Below, in pieces: positions 1,707-41,792 of a stretch of 64,000 bases of DNA. Every line of letters starts with the position of its first letter. The stretch's first letter is position 1. Source of the DNA: Calothrix membranacea FACHB-236 (GTDB taxonomy: Bacteria > Cyanobacteriota > Cyanobacteriia > Cyanobacteriales > Nostocaceae). The notes below the pieces were generated by a model. That model had not been told where the DNA came from. It did not search any database and saw only the letters and a list, made by a program, of their open reading frames with translations. A program made the position numbers and the translations under genes. Location of the stretch: assembly GCF_014696315.1 (NCBI RefSeq), contig NZ_JACJPX010000005.1, positions 124,001 to 188,000 on the forward strand, read 5' to 3'.

Positions 1707-2219
1707 TTAATCAGATGCGGGTAGCAGATAAATTGCCCCAGAGATTAATGTCAGAATTACGGAAACCCAAAATGCAGTTATGGCTGGGATTTGCCAATCT
1801 GCTGATAAGGGTGCAATTAAAAGTGCGATCGCAATAATTTGACTAACGGTTTTGAGTTTACCCCAAATATTCGCCCCGGTAATTTGAGTTTGATTCACCC
1901 GCCAACCTGCGATCGCTAGTTCTCGCGCCAAGATGAGAAACACTCCCCAAGCGGGGACTTTACCTAATTCAATCAACACCATTAACGGCGCAAGTACTAA
2001 AAATTTATCAACTAAAGGGTCAAGAAATTTGCCTAAATCGCTAATTTGGTTGAGTTTACGTGCTAAATAGCCGTCTAACCAATCGGTTAATGCAGCTACT
2101 AAAAAGATTGTTAGGCATATCCATTTGGCTTCGTTGGTAGGATTGTATAAGCCATAAAGGAGAAATGGTATTCCTAATAAGCGCGAAAAGGTAATCCAGT
2201 TGGGTATGGTCATTAGCAA
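1707..2219 (-). CDS. pgsA: CDP-diacylglycerol--glycerol-3-phosphate 3-phosphatidyltransferase
   Basis: An integral membrane enzyme making phosphatidylglycerol phosphate from CDP-diacylglycerol and glycerol 3-phosphate, the committed step to phosphatidylglycerol, an essential thylakoid lipid. The CDP-alcohol phosphotransferase signature D-G-x2-A-R-x8-G-x3-D-x3-D is complete (DGYLAR followed by GKFLDPLVD, residues 48-70). The rest is hydrophobic helices, and 170 residues is normal for the family. The N-terminus MLMTIPNWITFSR is typical of PgsA. It converges on the epimerase gene and is transcribed alone. Confidence 0.92.
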   Translation of the reverse strand: MLMTIPNWITFSRLLGIPFLLYGLYNPTNEAKWICLTIFLVAALTDWLDGYLARKLNQISDLGKFLDPLVDKFLVLAPLMVLIELGKVPAWGVFLILARELAIAGWRVNQTQITGANIWGKLKTVSQIIAIALLIAPLSADWQIPAITAFWVSVILTLISGAIYLLPASD

Positions 2220-2286
2220 TTCTAAATTATATTGAAATTAAAACTCGCAACCTCTTAATTTTATTGGTATCCTGGCATCCACCGTT

Positions 2287-3000
2287 CTAAATTGTATCTG
2301 GATCGATATTCAACTCTCGCAACTTAGCAGCTAATCTTTCTGCTTTTTGTTGAGCAATTTCTTTTTGCTGACGTTCTGATTCTACGATTTCTTCAGGTGT
2401 CGGAACTAAATTACCTTCTGGGGTAAAAAATCTTACTAAACCTTGATAAATACCCAAATACAACTCTAACTGTTGACTCCACAAATGTCCTTGATTGTTG
2501 GGTTCTAGAGGTTGATATTTACCATCAACTAAATGAAATCCTGCAAATTCTGAGGTGTAGGGATCAAACCAGAAATAATCTGGAGTCCGAAAAGTATCTT
2601 GGTAAAGTTTTTTCTTCAATCCTCTGTCTGTCTTCGCTGTTGATTCCGAAAGAATTTCTAAAATTAAATTCGGGTATTTACCATCTTCTTCCCACACTAC
2701 CCAACTTTTACGGGTTTTGCGTTCTGTATCGAGAACCACAAAAAAATCTGGGCCTCGGAATTTTTCATCTTTGCGCTTATTGTAACTATAGTAAATTGTC
2801 AGGTTACCAGCAGCATAAAAATCATTGCGATCGCGCCACAACCATTTTAAACATTTGAGTAAGAGCATGATTTGCTCTAAATGTAGTTCGGTTTCCAAGG
2901 GAGGTTCATCAGAGTATAAATCACCTGGAGGAAAGATAACATTTTCTGTGATGTCCTCGATAGCTGCTGGGGTAGTCTCTATTTCTTTAGCCAGGGACAT
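2287..3000 (-). CDS. Uma2 family endonuclease-like protein (DUF820)
   Basis: A member of the restriction-endonuclease-like Uma2/DUF820 family, hugely expanded in cyanobacteria and of unknown cellular role. Visible family features are the PDFFVVLD strand (residues about 85-92), the LILEILSESTAKTDRGLKK core with the D/E and K residues of a PD-(D/E)XK fold, and the FRTPDYFWFDP segment. The tail from about residue 205 is a Glu/Gln/Lys-rich predicted coiled coil (ESERQQKEIAQQKAERLAAK), common in these proteins. Length (237 residues) is normal. No partner gene or obvious mobile element flanks it. Confidence 0.8.
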   Translation of the reverse strand: MSLAKEIETTPAAIEDITENVIFPPGDLYSDEPPLETELHLEQIMLLLKCLKWLWRDRNDFYAAGNLTIYYSYNKRKDEKFRGPDFFVVLDTERKTRKSWVVWEEDGKYPNLILEILSESTAKTDRGLKKKLYQDTFRTPDYFWFDPYTSEFAGFHLVDGKYQPLEPNNQGHLWSQQLELYLGIYQGLVRFFTPEGNLVPTPEEIVESERQQKEIAQQKAERLAAKLRELNIDPDTI

Positions 3001-3135
3001 GATTGCGCTGAGGTATTGGTAGTTTATGGGTTTATTTTAACTCTCGTCAGTGGTTAAAAAGTCTGCGGTTGGTAGTTGATGCTAGGCAATAAATCGTAAA
3101 ACTCTTGTTTGTCGCTGACTACAAAGTAGTAAAAC

Positions 3136-3891
3136 CTATGCCACACGCTGAGATAGAAGTTCCTCCCATCTTGCTAAAATCATGTCTGTGTAATCTTTGC
3201 TATTAATCTTATATGCTCCTATAGCAAAACCATCGTTCATCTCTATCAGCGCAGTTTCTCCAGAATCTAAAACTCCAAAATCAATTGCATACCCTGCATA
3301 AGATTCTCCTGCATTATCGAGAGTTTCGATAGCAAACTGAATTTTTTCCCTATCTAGTAAAACATTGGCGTTGCCATCATAATGATCGATACTTCTAATT
3401 TCTGAGTGAACAACATAAACACGATACTCACTCAGCCAAGAAACTACTTCTGAACACAGCAGCTTTTCCTGACGCGAAACTCCGTAAACTCGATACAAAT
3501 CATATTCTGATTCCATGACACAACCTGTAAAGCGTTTGCGGCGCACAGCAGGTTTAGCAAATATTGCAGAGTATTTAGCGTTGCGAAGTCTTTGTTCCAA
3601 CTCTAAAAGTGTAGATGTCCATATGCGGCGGTGCATGAAGTTGCGAAGAGAGGAGGGATAATCGTTTGGTAAAGGTTCTGGGATACTAAGCTGTTTTAAT
3701 GCGCCTAAAACACATGACATATCACCAACGACTAAAGACTGATAATCAAGTGCAATTTGCCGCCTGTGAATACGTTTGTGGGTATAAAAAGTAATGGGAA
3801 TACCACGTTTTCTCAGTTCTTCAGTAACAAGTTGCTCTTCGTGTCGCAGTTTTCCATTACCCTGTTCTTGAATGAAAGCTTGAGAAATCAA
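3136..3891 (-). CDS. ATP-grasp domain-containing protein (R2K/DUF4343-like)
   Basis: A 251-residue protein resembling the R2K group of small ATP-grasp ligases, which are predicted to attach amino acids or peptides to other peptides. The C-terminal half carries the features that suggest this: FAKPAVRRKRFTG, LCSEVVSWLSEYRVYVV, GYAIDFGVLDSGETALIEMN with acidic metal-binding residues near D222 and E234/N236, and DGFAIGAYKI. The N-terminus (GKLRHEEQLVTEELRKRGI) looks like a pre-ATP-grasp region. A role in antiphage or peptide-tag chemistry has been proposed for related families, but nothing beside this gene supports one here. The family call is from motif memory. Confidence 0.65.
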   Translation of the reverse strand: MISQAFIQEQGNGKLRHEEQLVTEELRKRGIPITFYTHKRIHRRQIALDYQSLVVGDMSCVLGALKQLSIPEPLPNDYPSSLRNFMHRRIWTSTLLELEQRLRNAKYSAIFAKPAVRRKRFTGCVMESEYDLYRVYGVSRQEKLLCSEVVSWLSEYRVYVVHSEIRSIDHYDGNANVLLDREKIQFAIETLDNAGESYAGYAIDFGVLDSGETALIEMNDGFAIGAYKINSKDYTDMILARWEELLSQRVA

Positions 3892-3951
3892 TGCTAGCTC
3901 ACAAATTTAATCATAAATTTCCTGATACCAATATGCTAATCAATTATTTTT

Positions 3952-3985
3952 GCACCGCAGAGGACGCAGAGGCGCAGAGAGAAAA
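3952..3985. repeat. Interspersed GCAGAGG-type repeat
   Basis: A run of imperfect GCAGAGGC/GCAGAGGA units upstream of the aspartase gene. Runs of this kind recur between genes in Nostoc-like genomes. No coding frame or promoter is evident in it. Confidence 0.55.
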
Positions 3986-4054
3986 TTCAATTTTCACTTG
4001 TTCGCTTTGGCGTGGGATGATCTTTGTTCTGAGATTGTCTAAATTATCGGCACT

Positions 4055-5491
4055 ATGACTCAAGAAGTAAACTCCCAATTTCGCATCGAACGCGATTCGA
4101 TGGGCGATCGCCAAATTGCTAGTAATTTTTATTACGGCATTCAAACACTGCGGGCGATAGAAAACTTCCCAATTAGCGGGCTGAAGCCGTTATCTACTTA
4201 CGTAGATGCTGGTTTATTAATTAAAAAAGCTACCGCAATTGTTAATGGTGAATTGGGATGCATTCCCCAAGAAATTAGTCAGGCGATTGTACAAGCCACT
4301 GATGAGATACTTGCAGGGAAGTTGCGCGATCAATTTGTGGTTGATGTTTATCAAGCTGGTGCAGGGACTTCGCACCACATGAATGTCAATGAAGTGTTGG
4401 CGAATCGCGCTTTAGAAATTTTGGGAGATGAAAAGGGTAACTACAAGCGCGTCAGTCCTAATGACCATGTAAATTATGGGCAGTCTACCAATGATGTGAT
4501 TCCTACGGCAATTCGTATTGGTGGCTTATTAGCGCTAACTCATACATTACACCCAGCGTTAGATAATGCGATCGCAGCCTTGGAAGCTAAAGCCACAGAA
4601 TTTCAAGATATCGTCAAATCTGGCAGAACTCATTTGCAAGATGCTGTACCCGTGCGCTTAGGCGAGAACTTTCGCGCTTGGGCGTATATACTTGCAGAAC
4701 ATCAAAACCGGATTTATACAGCCTCAAGCGATTTAATGGTGTTGGGTTTAGGTGGAAGTGCGGCTGGTACAGGGATGAATACCCATCCACGTTATCGGGC
4801 GCGGGTGGTGGAAGTACTAGGCGAATTGCTAAACTCACCCTTGCAACCTGCACCCCATCTCATGGCTGCAATGCAGAGTATGGCACCATTTGTAAATGTT
4901 TCCGGTGCTGTACGTAATTTAGCTCAGGATTTAGTCAAAATCTCCCACGATTTGCGGTTGATGGATTCGGGGCCAAAAACTGGATTTAAGGAAATTCAAT
5001 TACCACCAGTACAACCTGGTTCTTCGATTATGCCAGGCAAGTATAATCCGGTGATGGCAGAGATGACATCAATGGTGTGTTTTCAAGTCATGGGTTACGA
5101 CAATGCGATCGCCCTGGCAGCCCAAGCGGGACAATTAGAATTAAATGTGATGATGCCGCTAATTGCTTATGATTTGATTCATAGTATCGAAATTCTGGGC
5201 AATACTATCGCCGCCCTCACGGAACGCTGTATCAAAGGGATTACAGCTAACCAAGAACGTTGTTTAGCATACGCGGAAGGTAGTTTGGCTTTAGTTACTG
5301 CCTTAAATACCCACATTGGTTATCTAAATGCGGCGGCTGTAGCGAAGGAATCTTTAGAAACTGGCAAATCTTTACGGCAGATTGTTTTGGAAAAAGGGCT
5401 GATGAGTGAAGCGGAATTAGCCACTGTGTTAAATCTCGAACAGATGAGCGGTATCATACCCCTCACTCCAGAATCAGACAACCTGGATTAA
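4055..5491 (+). CDS. aspA: Aspartate ammonia-lyase (aspartase/fumarase superfamily)
   Basis: A cytoplasmic lyase expected to convert L-aspartate reversibly to fumarate and ammonia. The superfamily signature GSSIMPGKYNP (about residues 327-337) holds the catalytic-loop serine, and GAGTSHHMNVNE and YGQSTNDVIPTA are also present. I chose aspartase over class II fumarase because several stretches match AspA rather than FumC: YYGIQTLRAIENFPISG near the N-terminus, CIKGITANQERC, and GKSLRQIVLEKGLMSEAEL near the C-terminus. At 478 residues the length is normal. The frame opens with ATG at 4055, and a hairpin terminator follows the stop. It may feed or drain the aspartate/cyanophycin nitrogen pool, but that is inference. 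Confidence 0.85.
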   Translation: MTQEVNSQFRIERDSMGDRQIASNFYYGIQTLRAIENFPISGLKPLSTYVDAGLLIKKATAIVNGELGCIPQEISQAIVQATDEILAGKLRDQFVVDVYQAGAGTSHHMNVNEVLANRALEILGDEKGNYKRVSPNDHVNYGQSTNDVIPTAIRIGGLLALTHTLHPALDNAIAALEAKATEFQDIVKSGRTHLQDAVPVRLGENFRAWAYILAEHQNRIYTASSDLMVLGLGGSAAGTGMNTHPRYRARVVEVLGELLNSPLQPAPHLMAAMQSMAPFVNVSGAVRNLAQDLVKISHDLRLMDSGPKTGFKEIQLPPVQPGSSIMPGKYNPVMAEMTSMVCFQVMGYDNAIALAAQAGQLELNVMMPLIAYDLIHSIEILGNTIAALTERCIKGITANQERCLAYAEGSLALVTALNTHIGYLNAAAVAKESLETGKSLRQIVLEKGLMSEAELATVLNLEQMSGIIPLTPESDNLD

Positions 5492-5512
5492 AAAGATAGT
5501 AGGAAGATATAG

Positions 5513-5544
5513 GAAAGAAGATTTCTTCTTTCTTTATCTTTACT
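5513..5544 (+). terminator. Probable rho-independent terminator of aspA
   Basis: Perfect 9-bp inverted repeat GAAAGAAGA (5513-5521) and TCTTCTTTC (5524-5532), then a T-rich run, 22 bp after the aspA stop. The stem is AT-rich and the loop is only 2 nt, so the hairpin would open slightly. Confidence 0.55.
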
Positions 5545-5561
5545 AATTGTCTAAATGATCC

Positions 5562-6533
5562 ATGCAGACACAAAAACCATCTGTCAGCTTAATCCGTGCT
5601 AATTCTTACGAACGAGAGACTTTACGCGAGTCTTTAGAAACGCTGCTGGAACCTTTTGGGGGGATAGCAGCTTTTGTTAAGCCAGGCGATCGCGTATTGC
5701 TCAAACCTAATTTACTCACAGGTGCGCGTCCTGGTAAAGAGTGTACTACTCGCCCCGAATTGGTTTACACAGTTGCCCAGATGGTAATGGAAGTTGGCGG
5801 TAAGCCGTTTTTAGGGGATAGTCCCGCTTTTGGTAGTGCCAAGGGTGTGGCTATAGCCAATGGTTATGCGCCAATTGTCGAAGAACTTCAGTTACCAATT
5901 ATCGATTTTCACGGTCAGCGTTACGAAACTGTTGGCGAAAATTTTAATCATCTGTTGCTATCAAAAGAAGCAATGGCGGCGGATGTGGTGATTAACTTAC
6001 CCAAAGTCAAATCCCATGCTCAACTAACATTAACTTTGAGTGTAAAAAACCTCTTTGGTTGTGTTCCCGGCAAAATGAAAGCTTGGTGGCACATGGAAGC
6101 CGGGAAAGATGCCAACCGTTTTGCGGAAATGTTGGTAGAAACTGCAAAGGCTATTAACCCCAGCTTAACCATTTTAGATGGGATCATCGGTCATGATGGC
6201 AATGGCCCTAGTAATGGAGAACCGCGTGCATTAGGTATTTTGGCAGCAGCATCAAATGTGTTTGCTCTGGATCGGGCAATGGTAGAAATTCTCAATGTTC
6301 CACCCCAGCAAGTACCAACCGTCGCAGCTTCCCAAAGATTAGGATTATGCCCAGAATTAACTGAAATTGATTTTCCGCATTTAGAACCTGATTTACTCAA
6401 AATAGAGGATTGGCGATTACCAGACAAGTTAATCCCTATCGATTTTGCCATGCCCCGTGTGATTAAATCCACATTTAAACACCTTTACATTCGTTTTATC
6501 AAAGAACCAATGACTGCCTATGGTAGACGTTAG
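5562..6533 (+). CDS. DUF362 domain-containing protein
   Basis: A 323-residue DUF362 protein. The family often accompanies iron-sulfur proteins, but its chemistry is not established. Recognisable segments are PGDRVLLKPNLLTG (residues 40-53), GGKPFLGDSPAFGSA, INLPKVKSHAQLTLTLSVKNLFGC and DGIIGHDGNGPSNGEPRALG. There are few cysteines and no CxxCxxCxxxC ferredoxin motif, so this is the form without the Fe-S extension. It lies 70 bp behind aspA on the same strand, with a hairpin between the two, so co-transcription is uncertain. A terminator follows. Confidence 0.85.
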   Translation: MQTQKPSVSLIRANSYERETLRESLETLLEPFGGIAAFVKPGDRVLLKPNLLTGARPGKECTTRPELVYTVAQMVMEVGGKPFLGDSPAFGSAKGVAIANGYAPIVEELQLPIIDFHGQRYETVGENFNHLLLSKEAMAADVVINLPKVKSHAQLTLTLSVKNLFGCVPGKMKAWWHMEAGKDANRFAEMLVETAKAINPSLTILDGIIGHDGNGPSNGEPRALGILAAASNVFALDRAMVEILNVPPQQVPTVAASQRLGLCPELTEIDFPHLEPDLLKIEDWRLPDKLIPIDFAMPRVIKSTFKHLYIRFIKEPMTAYGRR

Positions 6534-6610
6534 TTTTCCAAGTGCAAACTTAGCTACAACAATTTGAAAATTAGCAAATTAAGCTATAAATACCCTCCGA
6601 TTGCTTAACC

Positions 6611-6636
6611 AAACCGCCCTAGATTAGCGGCGGTTT
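6611..6636 (+). terminator. Rho-independent terminator after the DUF362 gene
   Basis: Perfect 8-bp stem AAACCGCC (6611-6618) and GGCGGTTT (6629-6636) with a 10-nt loop, 77 bp after the DUF362 stop. The T tract is short (TTT). Confidence 0.7.
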
Positions 6637-7400
6637 CCTCATACTCAATTTGTGATAAAATTACGATCAAACTCTGCATTATTGCTGGATATATTGCTGC
6701 AATATTTGCTAGATTTATGTAGATATATAGTATCCAAATATTTCAAATCTACCTAAATATAGATTGACAAAACAAGAAAGTATTCCTAGGAATATTTACT
6801 CTCATCTCGACAATATTGTTAGCATCCTAACTAAATTAATACGGACTAACCAGGTAGACATGAGTCTATTTATTCAGTGTCGATTTATGGTTACAAAAAG
6901 CAACAAGATTGGTTAATCTAAAAACATGATGCCGTTTCAGTATAACCACTGTGGAATATTACTATGGTTAATAGATAATCAGTGATTCTTCGGTAATGAA
7001 TTTAAGTAACACAAATTAATCTAATATCCCTAAAACTACCTTAGACAAAGCTTTTTCAGATGTTATACTAATGCAATCAAGCCCAAAATTGATTAAAAAT
7101 TGCATCTGCACTCAACTGCAAAAATGTAATTTATGATTCTCTAATCCTAAATCAAAAGCAGCAAAAATGATACAGGAGAGCAAGTGATATTTAATCTTAG
7201 CTACCACATCAAAGCCCAAAATGTTTGTGTTGAACTTTGTATCAAAAGACTTTTGTAGCGAAGCAATATTATGACACTTGTAAAACTGGATAAGATTATA
7301 AATGTATCCCCTGGTTACATCTAAAAGTAGTTAAAATAGAATCAAGACTCTCTTCAGAGAGTAAAGCTCAAAGTGAAGTGGTGAAGTTCAAATTTTTTGT
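6637..7400. other. AT-rich non-coding spacer (about 760 bp)
   Basis: No convincing reading frame, tRNA or repeat was found here. Close to the next gene is a small hairpin, ACTCTC-TTCA-GAGAGT at 7347-7362, which could lie in its 5' leader. Otherwise I see only AT-rich sequence that presumably contains its promoter. Confidence 0.6.
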
Positions 7401-38924: not shown

Positions 38925-39140
38925 ATGGGAAACTTCGCCTTCGTAACTCCATCATTCCACCTCAGAACCGGAAACTTCGCCTTCCAAAGTCCAGCGATCG
39001 CACTCAGAACACCATCATTCCCCCTCAGAACAGAAACGTTCTCATCTGAAACAAGAACATTCTCACTTGAAACAGAAACGTTCTCGTTTGGAACAGGAAA
39101 CTTTGAGTTCAGAACACGAAACTTGGAGATTAAAGCTTAA
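38925..39140 (+). repeat. 21-bp tandem repeat array, open in one frame as heptapeptides
   Basis: Ten degenerate 21-bp units. In the frame starting ATG at 38925 they translate as heptapeptides of the pattern x-N/S/T-F-x-x-x-T, for example GNFAFVT, PSFHLRT, GNFAFQS, ETFSSET, ETFSFGT. The DNA period is as clear as the protein period, there is no ribosome-binding site, and the frame has no other domain, so I treat it as repeat DNA. A 71-residue peptide cannot be excluded. Confidence 0.7.
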
Positions 39141-39217: not shown

Positions 39218-40552
39218 TTAGCTGTTATTGGTTGAGAGCAACGAAGATAACGAATTACTTTGCAGCCATACACATAGTTTTATATTCTTTGAATCCTCTG
39301 CCTTTGATTTATATTCCCCACTTTTAATTTCTTCTATACTTTTGGCATTAAACCTTGAATTGAGGTTACCTCTCATCAGGTCTTCAAACATAGCTAGCGG
39401 TAGCATTATACTCTCAATTTCCATCTCATCTTCGCTAAAGATAAGCGTCTCGAATCTAAATCTATAACCACACCATCTAATAGTCGATAGCCTATCTGCT
39501 GCATTTTTTAAATTTTCTACAATGCCATCATACTTTGTATCAGGATTTTTCTTTCCATGTTCTATCCACCAATAAACATTGTGCCTAACAAAATGCTTAC
39601 CATTTTCGCTAGTACAAACCTCTATTTCCACATCATTTACATATAAAAATTGACGAGTCATTACTCTAGCTTCACCTTCCGCCATTGGTTCTAATTCCTC
39701 CCAAGGTTCTACTTCAATCACATCTTGACAATTACTAATGTTCTGATTTTTCTTATCAACTAGTTCTATGGGTATAGGGTCATCCTCTAAAGCCTCTAAA
39801 CCGGAAGCTTCTTCCTTAAACTCTGGTGTATTTTCAAGAATTATTTCTAGTTGCTCACTACTAAAAGCCATAAGTTCAACCCCTGCGATAGTGCGACGAG
39901 TCGAATTATCCATAAAGTGAACTAAACCCTGAAACGGTGTTAAATCTATTCGTATACCGTTGTACTCAGTCTGCCAATAACCAAATTTTCCTAAACGCTT
40001 AGGCTCTGTATGGTACTCTTTCCACTTCAGTGTGCTAGCCTTTGTGTTAATATTTTTAAGTGCAGATCTAATGGTTCCTGATACACCGCGCCTATCGTAA
40101 ACAGGATAAACCAAATATATTGTTGGTAGTTCCTCATCAGCAATTGGATCGAATCCAAATATCATAGTTTTACAGTTAGCCAATTGCTGAAGACTCTGCT
40201 GTAATGATGTCTCGGCTAGAGTTATTCTTCTAATTGGCGCGACCACTTTCGACCAATTCAACGGCGGCTTGTATAAATTGATTAGTTCATTTTCGATAGT
40301 TGGAAGAGCATTTATCTGATTACTGCAATTTACCCAACTAATATTAATACGGTCTTTGCGATTAAATCTTTTTAGCTGTTTAAATCTATGATGTTCTCGC
40401 CACCGCGCAGCTAAGTTGATTGTTCTGCCAATATAAAGAATCTGACCTTGGCTATCAGAAACAAAGTAGATAGCTGCACAATTCGGTAACTTGTCTTTGT
40501 CTAATAAATAAACCGATGGTAGTTCAGATAAGTTGATGTTTTCTAATAACAT
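39218..40552 (-). CDS. GIY-YIG nuclease-domain protein
   Basis: A 444-residue protein with an N-terminal GIY-YIG endonuclease domain. AIYFV (27-31) and LYIGRT (39-44) form the GIY and YIG strands. The catalytic Arg lies in AARWREHH (48-55), and the Glu in ENELINLYKPPLN (87-99). The other 340 residues match nothing I recognise. They include a second block from about residue 130 (YLVYPVYDRRGVSG) and a central acidic linker. The stand-alone form with a large unknown C-terminal half suggests a repair, restriction or mobile-element role. A short transposon-like element lies 94 bp upstream of its start, possibly within its promoter. Confidence 0.8.
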   Translation of the reverse strand: MLLENINLSELPSVYLLDKDKLPNCAAIYFVSDSQGQILYIGRTINLAARWREHHRFKQLKRFNRKDRINISWVNCSNQINALPTIENELINLYKPPLNWSKVVAPIRRITLAETSLQQSLQQLANCKTMIFGFDPIADEELPTIYLVYPVYDRRGVSGTIRSALKNINTKASTLKWKEYHTEPKRLGKFGYWQTEYNGIRIDLTPFQGLVHFMDNSTRRTIAGVELMAFSSEQLEIILENTPEFKEEASGLEALEDDPIPIELVDKKNQNISNCQDVIEVEPWEELEPMAEGEARVMTRQFLYVNDVEIEVCTSENGKHFVRHNVYWWIEHGKKNPDTKYDGIVENLKNAADRLSTIRWCGYRFRFETLIFSEDEMEIESIMLPLAMFEDLMRGNLNSRFNAKSIEEIKSGEYKSKAEDSKNIKLCVWLQSNSLSSLLSTNNS

Positions 40553-40640
40553 CGCACCACTTTTGCAAAAAAATAGAATTAAAATTTATCAATAATTAGC
40601 TCTTTAAACTATAGATATAATCACTCTATATTTGTCGATA

Positions 40641-41045
40641 AAATTTGTCGGTTAACCCATAATATTGCCGCGACTGGAACCATAATATTGCCGCTTTAAG
40701 GGTTGTAATGTTGATTCTTTCATTACGCGATCGCATCCTTTTTTGATGCATTGGAACCATAATATTGCCGGAAATCAAAAATGGAATTATAAGCTTGCCA
40801 AAAAAAGGTAATCCTAAGATTTGATTTTTTGGTTGGTGTATTATTGCCAAATGCTTATGCCAGAAGAGCTTCAGGTTTTTAGGGGATTTCAATCCTACAT
40901 TTTCAGTCCAGGTTCGTTATCAACCATTTTATTGCCAAATGTATAGCCTGTAAGGATTAGACGCATTGGAAGGATAATATTGCCAATTTGAATTAGAAGC
41001 ATAAGCACGTAAAAACGGCAATATTATCCTTCCACCGACAAAATT
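40641..41045. mobile_element. 395-bp mini-transposon with 5-bp target duplication (Tn7/Tn5053-like ends)
   Basis: The element spans 40646-41040. It starts TGTCGGTTAACCC and ends CCGACA, and is flanked on both sides by AAATT (40641-40645 and 41041-41045). The two 25-bp ends agree at 20 positions when one is reverse-complemented, sharing TGTCGGT and then ATAATATTGCCG. The inner motif ATAATATTGCC recurs at 40674-40693 and 40748-40770, and as GGAAGGATAATATTGCC at 40968-40984. Weaker copies lie near 40781, 40831 and 40921. A 5-bp duplication plus multiple internal binding-site-like repeats is the hallmark of TnsB/TniA/MuA-type transposons. It carries no transposase, so it is non-autonomous (MITE-like). 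Confidence 0.8.
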
Positions 41046-41187
41046 AGTGAAATCATCTCATCATTCTATAGAGTCTATATTGCTAGATTTCCCTCAAATT
41101 ATCTCAAAGTAACATTTTCAAATTATTTTAAGAAGCAAACTGGCAATAGGTGAAAAATTGCACTTTTGTGAAACATCCAAAACAATA

Positions 41188-41211
41188 CCCCTCTCCGCCG
41201 CCGGAGAGGGG
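41188..41211. terminator. Palindrome CCCCTCTCCG...CGGAGAGGGG downstream of ndhJ
   Basis: 10-bp perfect arms with a 4-nt loop, 54 bp past the ndhJ stop. It is a common cyanobacterial interspersed palindrome (followed by GGTTAGGG). On the minus strand the stem is followed by TATTGTTTTGG, so it could end the ndhC-K-J transcript. Confidence 0.6.
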
Positions 41212-41264
41212 TTAGGGATGAGATATCACACTTCTCACTGCTGACACTCAGCAATCAACACTGT

Positions 41265-41792
41265 CTAATAAGCGTCTTGCAACTCGTAGAAATCAGGCGA
41301 GATGTAATCCTTCCGCAAAGGCCAGCCTACCCAATCTTCAGGCATTAAAATCCGCTTCAAGTTGGGGTGTCCTTCATAGACAATGCCGAACATATCATAG
41401 GACTCGCGCTCTTGCCAGTCTGCGGTCTTCCAAATCCAGTAGACTGAAGGCACTGTAGGGTTTTCCCTTGGGAGGAACACCTTCAATCGTACTTCTTCAG
41501 GGCGATCGCTATTATCACCTACTTTAATTAAGTGATATACACTCACCAACTCTTGTCCGGGGCCGAGGTCAACGCCACCTTGGAACTGGAGACAATTAAA
41601 CCCGTAAGCATACAAAGCTGTAGCGGTAGGAAGTAAGAAATCTGCTGCTACCTTGAGTATTTCTACACCGTTAACATCGGGTGCTAAAACCTCATGGTCA
41701 AAGCCATTTTCACTCAACCACTGGGAAACTTTTCCGGCCTTAACCAACGAATCTTCGGCTGCTGGTACTGGCTTAGATTCTTCATCAGCCAC
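41265..41792 (-). CDS. ndhJ: NAD(P)H-quinone oxidoreductase subunit J
   Basis: The 30-kDa-type hydrophilic-arm subunit of cyanobacterial NDH-1, which works in respiration, cyclic electron flow around PSI and CO2 uptake at the thylakoid. The family signature [20 protein letters not shown] is present as YDMFGI-x-HPNLKRI, followed by [13 protein letters not shown]. 175 residues is the normal cyanobacterial length. Its start overlaps the ndhK stop by 8 bp, so it is the last gene of ndhC-K-J. Confidence 0.96.

Follow-up and report, generated by a model that had tools for sequence, protein, structure and literature searches.

The 395-bp element and its relatives

A 395-bp unit in the window (the whole 64-kb stretch of DNA that was analysed) begins with TGTCGGT, ends with ACCGACA and has AAATT directly outside each tip (Table 1). 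Its neighbours, both on the minus strand and both named from a reading of their translations, are a GIY-YIG gene (39218-40552), whose start faces the unit, and ndhJ (41265-41792), whose 3′ end does. The initial annotation had described this unit and its AAATT flanks, and its limits, 40646-41040, can be read directly from the sequence. A repeat search returned its terminal inverted pair as 30 nt (40641-40670 and 41016-41045) with 80% complementarity. ORF inspection found no genes inside it, and an Rfam search of 40500-41250 gave four matches, all far under their gathering scores. The unit has the generic features of a MITE, being short and gene-less, with terminal inverted repeats (TIRs), a target-site duplication (TSD) and an autonomous relative. 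Elsewhere in the window, at 38925-39140, the ORF list includes a short ORF of near-repeats that adjoins a large NRPS-like gene.

Table 1. Coordinates of the element, its parts and its neighbouring motif in the window.
Feature	Coordinates	Strand	Basis or remark
Left TSD copy, AAATT	40641..40645		Sequence reading; one copy, slightly altered, at the empty site in L090-L092
Non-autonomous Tn7-like mini-element, 395 bp	40646..41040	+	Left end first; strand set by homology
Left end	40646..40804	+	Homologous to TnsAB-TnsC-TniQ left ends (positions 1-158/177, 66-72% identity)
Left terminal 25 bp, TGTCGGT-N6-ATAATATTGCCG	40646..40670	+	Sequence reading and end search
Putative TnsB site, element position 14	40659..40669	+	Exact ATAATATTGCC
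Putative TnsB site, element position 37	40682..40692	+	Exact ATAATATTGCC
Putative TnsB site, element position 114	40759..40769	+	Exact ATAATATTGCC
Weak putative TnsB site, element position 144	40789..40799	+	2 mismatches
Core of ~160 bp, common to the mini family	40805..40965		No match in the tested full elements; two weak sites (40838, 40926)
Right end	40966..41040	+	Homologous to full-element right ends (last 75-99 bp, 71-89% identity)
Putative TnsB site, -67 from right tip	40974..40984	+	Exact ATAATATTGCC; inverted relative to the terminal site
Right terminal 25 bp	41016..41040	-	Sequence reading and end search
Putative TnsB site at right tip, position -24	41017..41027	-	Exact ATAATATTGCC
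Right TSD copy, AAATT	41041..41045		Sequence reading
Putative target motif ATTGCTAGATTTCCCTC	41079..41095	+	GCTA from base 42 past the right tip; matrix p=0.0012

The end block also recurs within the unit, as had been noted from the sequence: there are five exact copies of ATAATATTGCC, every one of them inside the element, plus three weak sites (2 mismatches) at element positions 144, 193 and 281. With up to one mismatch allowed, ATAATATTGCC has 11 matches in the 64 kb against 2.03 expected, and none of 100 shuffles reached 11. These putative TnsB-type sites are multiple and asymmetrically arranged, four on the left (one weak) and two on the right.

The 395-bp unit is an insertion. In three genomes of the same genus (G018, G013 and G015), the window flanks are continuous and lack the element (BLAST, 401 positions, 90-91% identity), and a fourth, G016, aligns over the same joined-flank stretch at 73% identity; for G014, G012 and G017 the ndhJ-side part alone aligned, which makes them uninformative on the empty site. 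An empty site with a single AAATT had been anticipated, and the empty site is there, although it reads AAAG(T) in G018, G013 and G015.

A DNA search of 217 Nostocaceae genomes gave matches in 101, many of them to the ends alone. Full-length relatives occur in G214 (93% identity), G085 (88%), G155 (86%), G005 (85%) and G193 (72%). A strict end-pattern search located the end in 56 of the 217 genomes. When species genomes were scanned for the exact pattern, 41 stretches contained it, and the titles of 39 of these are cyanobacterial. The other two matches lie in metagenome-assembled genomes titled Clostridiales (L220, L238). With up to two mismatches allowed, a scan of the phylum found the end in 39 of 386 genomes, those outside the family being pattern matches alone. 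Of 34 pairs obtained by matching ends in the loci examined, 21 are short elements (316-883 bp, the window copy included), 10 are full elements (5456-5947 bp) and three are others, one of 3104 bp and two composites. Perfect 5-bp TSDs flank 11 of the 21 short and five of the 10 full elements; the remaining 10 short and five full elements have no perfect TSD, which we count against the explanation favoured below.

The mini-elements resemble one another in their core by up to 96% identity. A blastn search with the core (element positions 160-320) against all loci returned minis and a single, unassigned 55-bp match in L070, and did not find it in the full elements. Since no core was found there, the 395-bp mini did not arise by simple internal deletion from any full element tested, which likewise counts against that explanation. 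We also considered such a deletion by aligning the core to the full elements L064 and L067 (two regions each), and rejected it, as these alignments were equalled by 0.925, 0.89, 0.68 and 0.12 of 200 shuffles.

Full elements and the class of the transposase

The ends of the mini-element are shared with elements that carry transposition genes. On plasmid pANSO36B of Nostoc cf. commune SO-36 (L064), a 5895-bp element has the same ends as the mini and is annotated with a TnsA-domain protein, an AAA ATPase and a TniQ protein. Pfam, applied among the full elements to the L064 proteins only, assigned TnsA N- and C-terminal domains, an rve integrase core and Mu-transpos_C to a 904-aa protein, AAA/TniB to the second protein and TniQ to the third. 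The other nine full elements are from G140, G040 (four), G014 (two), G193 and G062. Eight of the ten have three intact ORFs, read as TnsAB, TnsC and TniQ; the G193 copy (L071) has a broken TnsAB frame and an extra, unrelated 295-aa ORF, and one G040 copy (L077) has a split TnsC frame. TnsAB proteins in G105, G140, G040, G014 and G062 are 71-100% identical to that of L064.

The five exact sites, at positions 14, 37, 114, -67 and -24, are identical in position between the mini and five different full elements, and the weak site at position 144 is present in four of these five, the exception being L067. The mini keeps the register of the full elements. Compared with these cargo-free Nostocales TnsAB-TnsC-TniQ elements (e.g., L064), the window mini has the same kind of tips, the same site register at both ends, target motif and spacing, and a 5-bp TSD, which half of them have. 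Unlike the mini, they span 5.4-5.95 kb and encode three genes, and the 160-bp core was not found in them.

The initial annotation had proposed a transposase of either TnsB or TniA type. A Tn5053/TniA-class mini-element would share with this one its TGT tips, a TSD of 5 bp and more than one site at each terminus, all of which occur in the wider class, yet all ten full elements encode TnsAB, TnsC and TniQ (with TnsAB broken in L071 and TnsC split in L077). The Tn5053 family has TniA, TniB and TniR and no TnsA. Here, in place of a TniA/TniB/TniQ/TniR set without TnsA, the TnsA domains are fused to the transposase (Pfam, L064), and visual inspection of the ten full elements showed no resolvase ORF. 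We therefore regard a Tn5053-type origin as very improbable. The TnsB half of the proposal stands, in the form of a TnsA-TnsB fusion related to type I-B2 CRISPR-associated transposons (CASTs), and so does the broader description of a TnsB-class mini-element that is non-autonomous, has multiple sites, is flanked by a clean duplication of 5 bp and was probably moved in trans, given the autonomous elements with the same ends, the empty site and the relatives with TSDs. Judged by sequence comparison, the mini is a gene-less satellite of a Tn7-like branch with TnsAB-TnsC-TniQ/TnsD, not of Tn5053.

A link to CASTs had also been raised, and it holds for the transposase and not for the gene content. 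TnsAB aligns over residues 5-898 with the PmcCAST transpososome chain in PDB 9bw1 (1122 bits), so the TnsA-TnsB fusion is related over its full length to that of the type I-B2 CAST PmcCAST (Tn7744). The matching full elements have no CRISPR-Cas genes; each of the ten contains three transposition ORFs, with the additional 295-aa ORF in L071. PmcCAST, by the account in PMC11406308, has CRISPR-Cas genes, two TniQ-type proteins and a tRNA attachment site. The best match of the TniQ protein to PmcCAST TnsD is confined to residues 1-347 of 522, which fits a different target reader. The same source, citing Hsieh and Peters, states that cyanobacterial TnsA-TnsB-fusion elements occur together with I-B2, I-D and a range of targeting modes not based on CRISPR.

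Two kinds of TnsAB element within the same genus could be the mover in place of the cargo-free TnsABCD group, as one TnsAB could accept related ends. One, in G018 (L257-L258, G018:C1:4639000-4678800), encodes a Cas6 confirmed by Pfam, a pair of TniQ-domain proteins and a TnsAB of 900 aa that is 56% identical to P0001, along with a TnsC-like ORF and restriction-modification-like cargo, both recognized by eye. Pfam gave no match for three neighbouring ORFs, where other cas genes would be expected. This element is probably a type I-B2-like CAST, a label that is in part our interpretation. Its four left-end sites are spaced 14/37/114/144 as in the mini, but its tips are TGCGACT and TGTGACT and its sites resemble ATAACTTTGCC, compared with TGTCGGT and ATAATATTGCC in the mini, and a tRNA-Val gene, not a Tn3-type motif, lies directly outside its right end. 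The other, in G014 (G014:C1), is present as two identical 4,904-bp copies with their own 5-bp duplications (L288 516-5419 and L289 282-5185) and a TnsAB identity of 48%; judged by its length, this may be Tn5469. Its tips are TGTGACT/TGTCACT and its sites ATAAGTTTGCC, again unlike those of the mini. The spelling TGTC/ATAAKATTGCC accompanies TnsABCD-only elements. On balance, a mover that is I-B2-like or Tn5469-like seems decidedly unlikely, and we continue with the cargo-free TnsABCD group. According to PMC11406308, Tn5469 of Fremyella diplosiphon is cargo-free with a single TniQ and, unlike the elements described here, is untargeted.

The sequence beside the right ends

In many relatives a motif like TTCGCTATATCTACCCC lies outside the right tip. 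GCT[AC] at base 40-43 is found in 33/61 distinct right-end flanks (GCTA in 29/61) compared with 8/44 left-end flanks. For a matrix of the motif, TGTG-tip ends and flanks that are themselves another copy were dropped, leaving 56 right and 36 left ends. In leave-one-out scoring, 37/55 right ends reached p<0.01 and 40/55 reached p<0.05, against 7/36 and 9/36 for the left-end control; the flanks are related by descent, so these p-values are descriptive. The remaining 15/55 right ends (about a quarter, p>=0.05) have no clear motif. The window copy scores p=0.0012 at the standard offset with a matrix from the other 55, although its 17-mer agrees with the consensus at 11/17 positions and a score of this size arises somewhere in about 7% of random 150-mers. 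Three of the left-end positives (L024, L139 and L142) sit in mirror-image repeats and so are flanked by the motif on each side. L266 and L115 have a strong motif adjoining the left end, against the position rule. At least one short element, L143, is oriented differently by the end pairing and by the GCT[AC] count, so that left and right are uncertain for such near-symmetrical copies. Statistically, then, a conserved motif is often found some 41 bp beyond the right end, with distance and orientation fixed at the level of the family.

In the relatives that could be traced, sequence comparison shows the motif to be the outer TIR part either of a transposon of the Tn3 family or of an element of the resolvase/transposase/TniB type. 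The clean case is in G060:C10 (L286 202-4994), where two outward-facing copies enclose a 4793-bp element with GGGG tips and TTATA on each side that encodes a 1011-aa protein with a Tn3-transposase domain (3.5e-142) and a tyrosine recombinase. A second pair, in G065:C3, spans 5455 bp and includes a 653-aa Tn3-domain protein, without a matching duplication. AP018275, which has an annotated Tn3 transposase, was considered and set aside, as a GGGGT scan showed no Tn3-type TIR. Family elements are also hosted by short GGGG-tipped inverted pairs with 5-bp duplications, in L139 (TTCTC) and L142 (AAATT). Short inverted pairs of such Tn3-type ends without a transposase were observed in L139, L142, L164 and L174.

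At L141 the flank contains a 38-bp repeat, GGGG...TAAG, whose length and TAAG ending we take to match Tn3 repeats, and the right tip of the element lies 18 bp inside it. With insertion just inside the TIR, as seen at this one locus, the host transposon would be expected to remain mobile and to take its guest along. Targets of another type, TGTAGCGAACTGCAAACA..., make up both of the long inverted ends (TGTAGCGAACTGCAAACAT) of the L176 element (2122-6047), which encodes a resolvase (Pfam), an annotated DDE transposase, for which Pfam gave weak HTH matches only, and a TniB-like ATPase. In L183, genes with these annotations adjoin one end of this kind. In L177, two TGTAGCGAACTGCAAACAT-type ends are about 640 bp apart.

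From this anatomy we infer that TniQ/TnsD homes to the motif. Hot spots, or exchange among plasmids that carry Tn3 ends, would offer a different and, in our judgement, unlikely reason for the motif to lie beside right ends. The targets are indeed repeats that occur widely on plasmids (27 and 25 records), and the right ends that lack a clear motif and the left ends that carry one point the same way. Against this, spacing and orientation are similar across several motif variants, four full copies in the single genome G040 adjoin three variants, all ending CCCC, and tandem insertions occur at one site. Recognition by TniQ/TnsD accordingly remains our preferred reading of the motif.

Mobilisation and the missing helper

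Two loci hold a short and a full element head to tail. In L138, a 5947-bp element is joined to a 317-bp mini, with ATTGC between the two and on the motif side, and not on the far side. In L141 (G040:C2), an 883-bp derivative (6262-7144) adjoins a 5895-bp element, with CCCAG at all three junctions. If the distance of insertion from the motif is fixed, the motif-proximal element came last, which would be the mini in L138 and the full element in L141. This tandem sharing of one target site is circumstantial evidence for mobilisation in trans. The start of an ORF in the 883-bp derivative reads by eye as part of TnsAB, and because of this remnant the derivative looks like an internal deletion, an origin other than that of the 395-bp family.

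We consider it likely that the mini-element is a natural "mini-Tn7"-like satellite of the cyanobacterial TnsAB-TnsC-TnsD(TniQ) family that was moved in trans and placed near the motif. The gene-less 395-bp element keeps the putative TnsB-domain sites at each end in the same register as the autonomous elements (5.4-5.95 kb), and the TnsAB of an autonomous element then in the cell would bind them and cut the mini out in trans. TnsC and TniQ/TnsD would then insert the mini, with its right end leading, some 41 bp from a motif resembling TTCGCTAYATYTACCCC, which would leave a 5-bp duplication. The window copy may have used a weaker chromosomal match to the motif between ndhJ and the GIY-YIG gene, and the helper may since have been lost or have been absent from this genome.

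In the window genome (8.81 Mb, a draft of 164 contigs with completeness given as 100), the element is an orphan. The whole element is present once, and the 25-bp end with up to two mismatches occurs just at its two ends, two further matches needing three mismatches. A protein search of this 164-contig draft found no TnsAB at E<=1e-60; the best match was 28% identical over 292 residues. A 633-aa TnsB-like ORF with this match (L088 1204-3105, G000:C149) was considered as the cognate helper and rejected, as it has no fused TnsA. With one copy and no TnsAB in the 164-contig draft, there is no sign of current activity. The further copies anticipated in the initial annotation are thus found in related genomes and not elsewhere in its own, and likewise the transposase with matching ends, a cognate tnsABC-tniQ element, is encoded by the ten full elements in other genomes and was not found here.

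A TnsAB match at E<=1e-60 is present in 98 of the 217 family genomes, the window genome not among them. Thirteen genomes have a match of more than 100 nt to the mini core (G000, G214, G155, G055, G036, G085, G091, G136, G005, G172, G114, G125 and G086), a set that leaves out the distant G193 (62%), the shorter matches in G180, G106 and G113, and L228 (a Tolypothrix contig). Nine of the 13 have no TnsAB at this threshold, and G114 is the sole one with a TnsAB of at least 65% identity, which is cut short. That no helper was found in the window genome or, at this threshold, in most mini-core genomes counts against the satellite explanation that we favour.

Among bacterial elements described before, TIMEs and other MITEs are likewise short, gene-less and moved by the transposase of a full relative (PMC4133298, PMC10969869). 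TIMEs differ in being derived from Tn3, while the window mini has many putative transposase sites and would need multi-protein Tn7-like machinery. For the target, the nearest precedent is Tn5053, described in PMC11406308 as a TniQ element that, as a "res site hunter", homes to part of Tn3-family transposons; it targets the res sites of Tn3 relatives, and here the target is the terminal inverted repeat. None of the titles and abstract openings among the papers listed describes such satellites or such a target, and the autonomous group may already be included in Hsieh and Peters (NAR 2023).

Altogether, we suggest that this branch targets the ends of other transposons and is carried along by them. 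In its broadest form, we regard as an even proposition that a Tn7-like branch next to the I-B2 CASTs has a TnsD that reads the TIRs of other transposons (of the Tn3 family and of a resolvase/transposase/TniB-type family), inserts just inside them and supports gene-less satellites of 0.3-0.4 kb that obey the same rule, one of which lies in the window. Natural gene-less Tn7-like satellites would show which end sites suffice for the multi-protein TnsABCD machinery, which would be useful for I-B2 CAST tools. The target rule, if based on TnsD, would be a non-CRISPR targeting mode in a branch that also gave rise to CRISPR-guided transposons, and, if true, it suggests how a transposon without cargo may spread, by riding inside other transposons.
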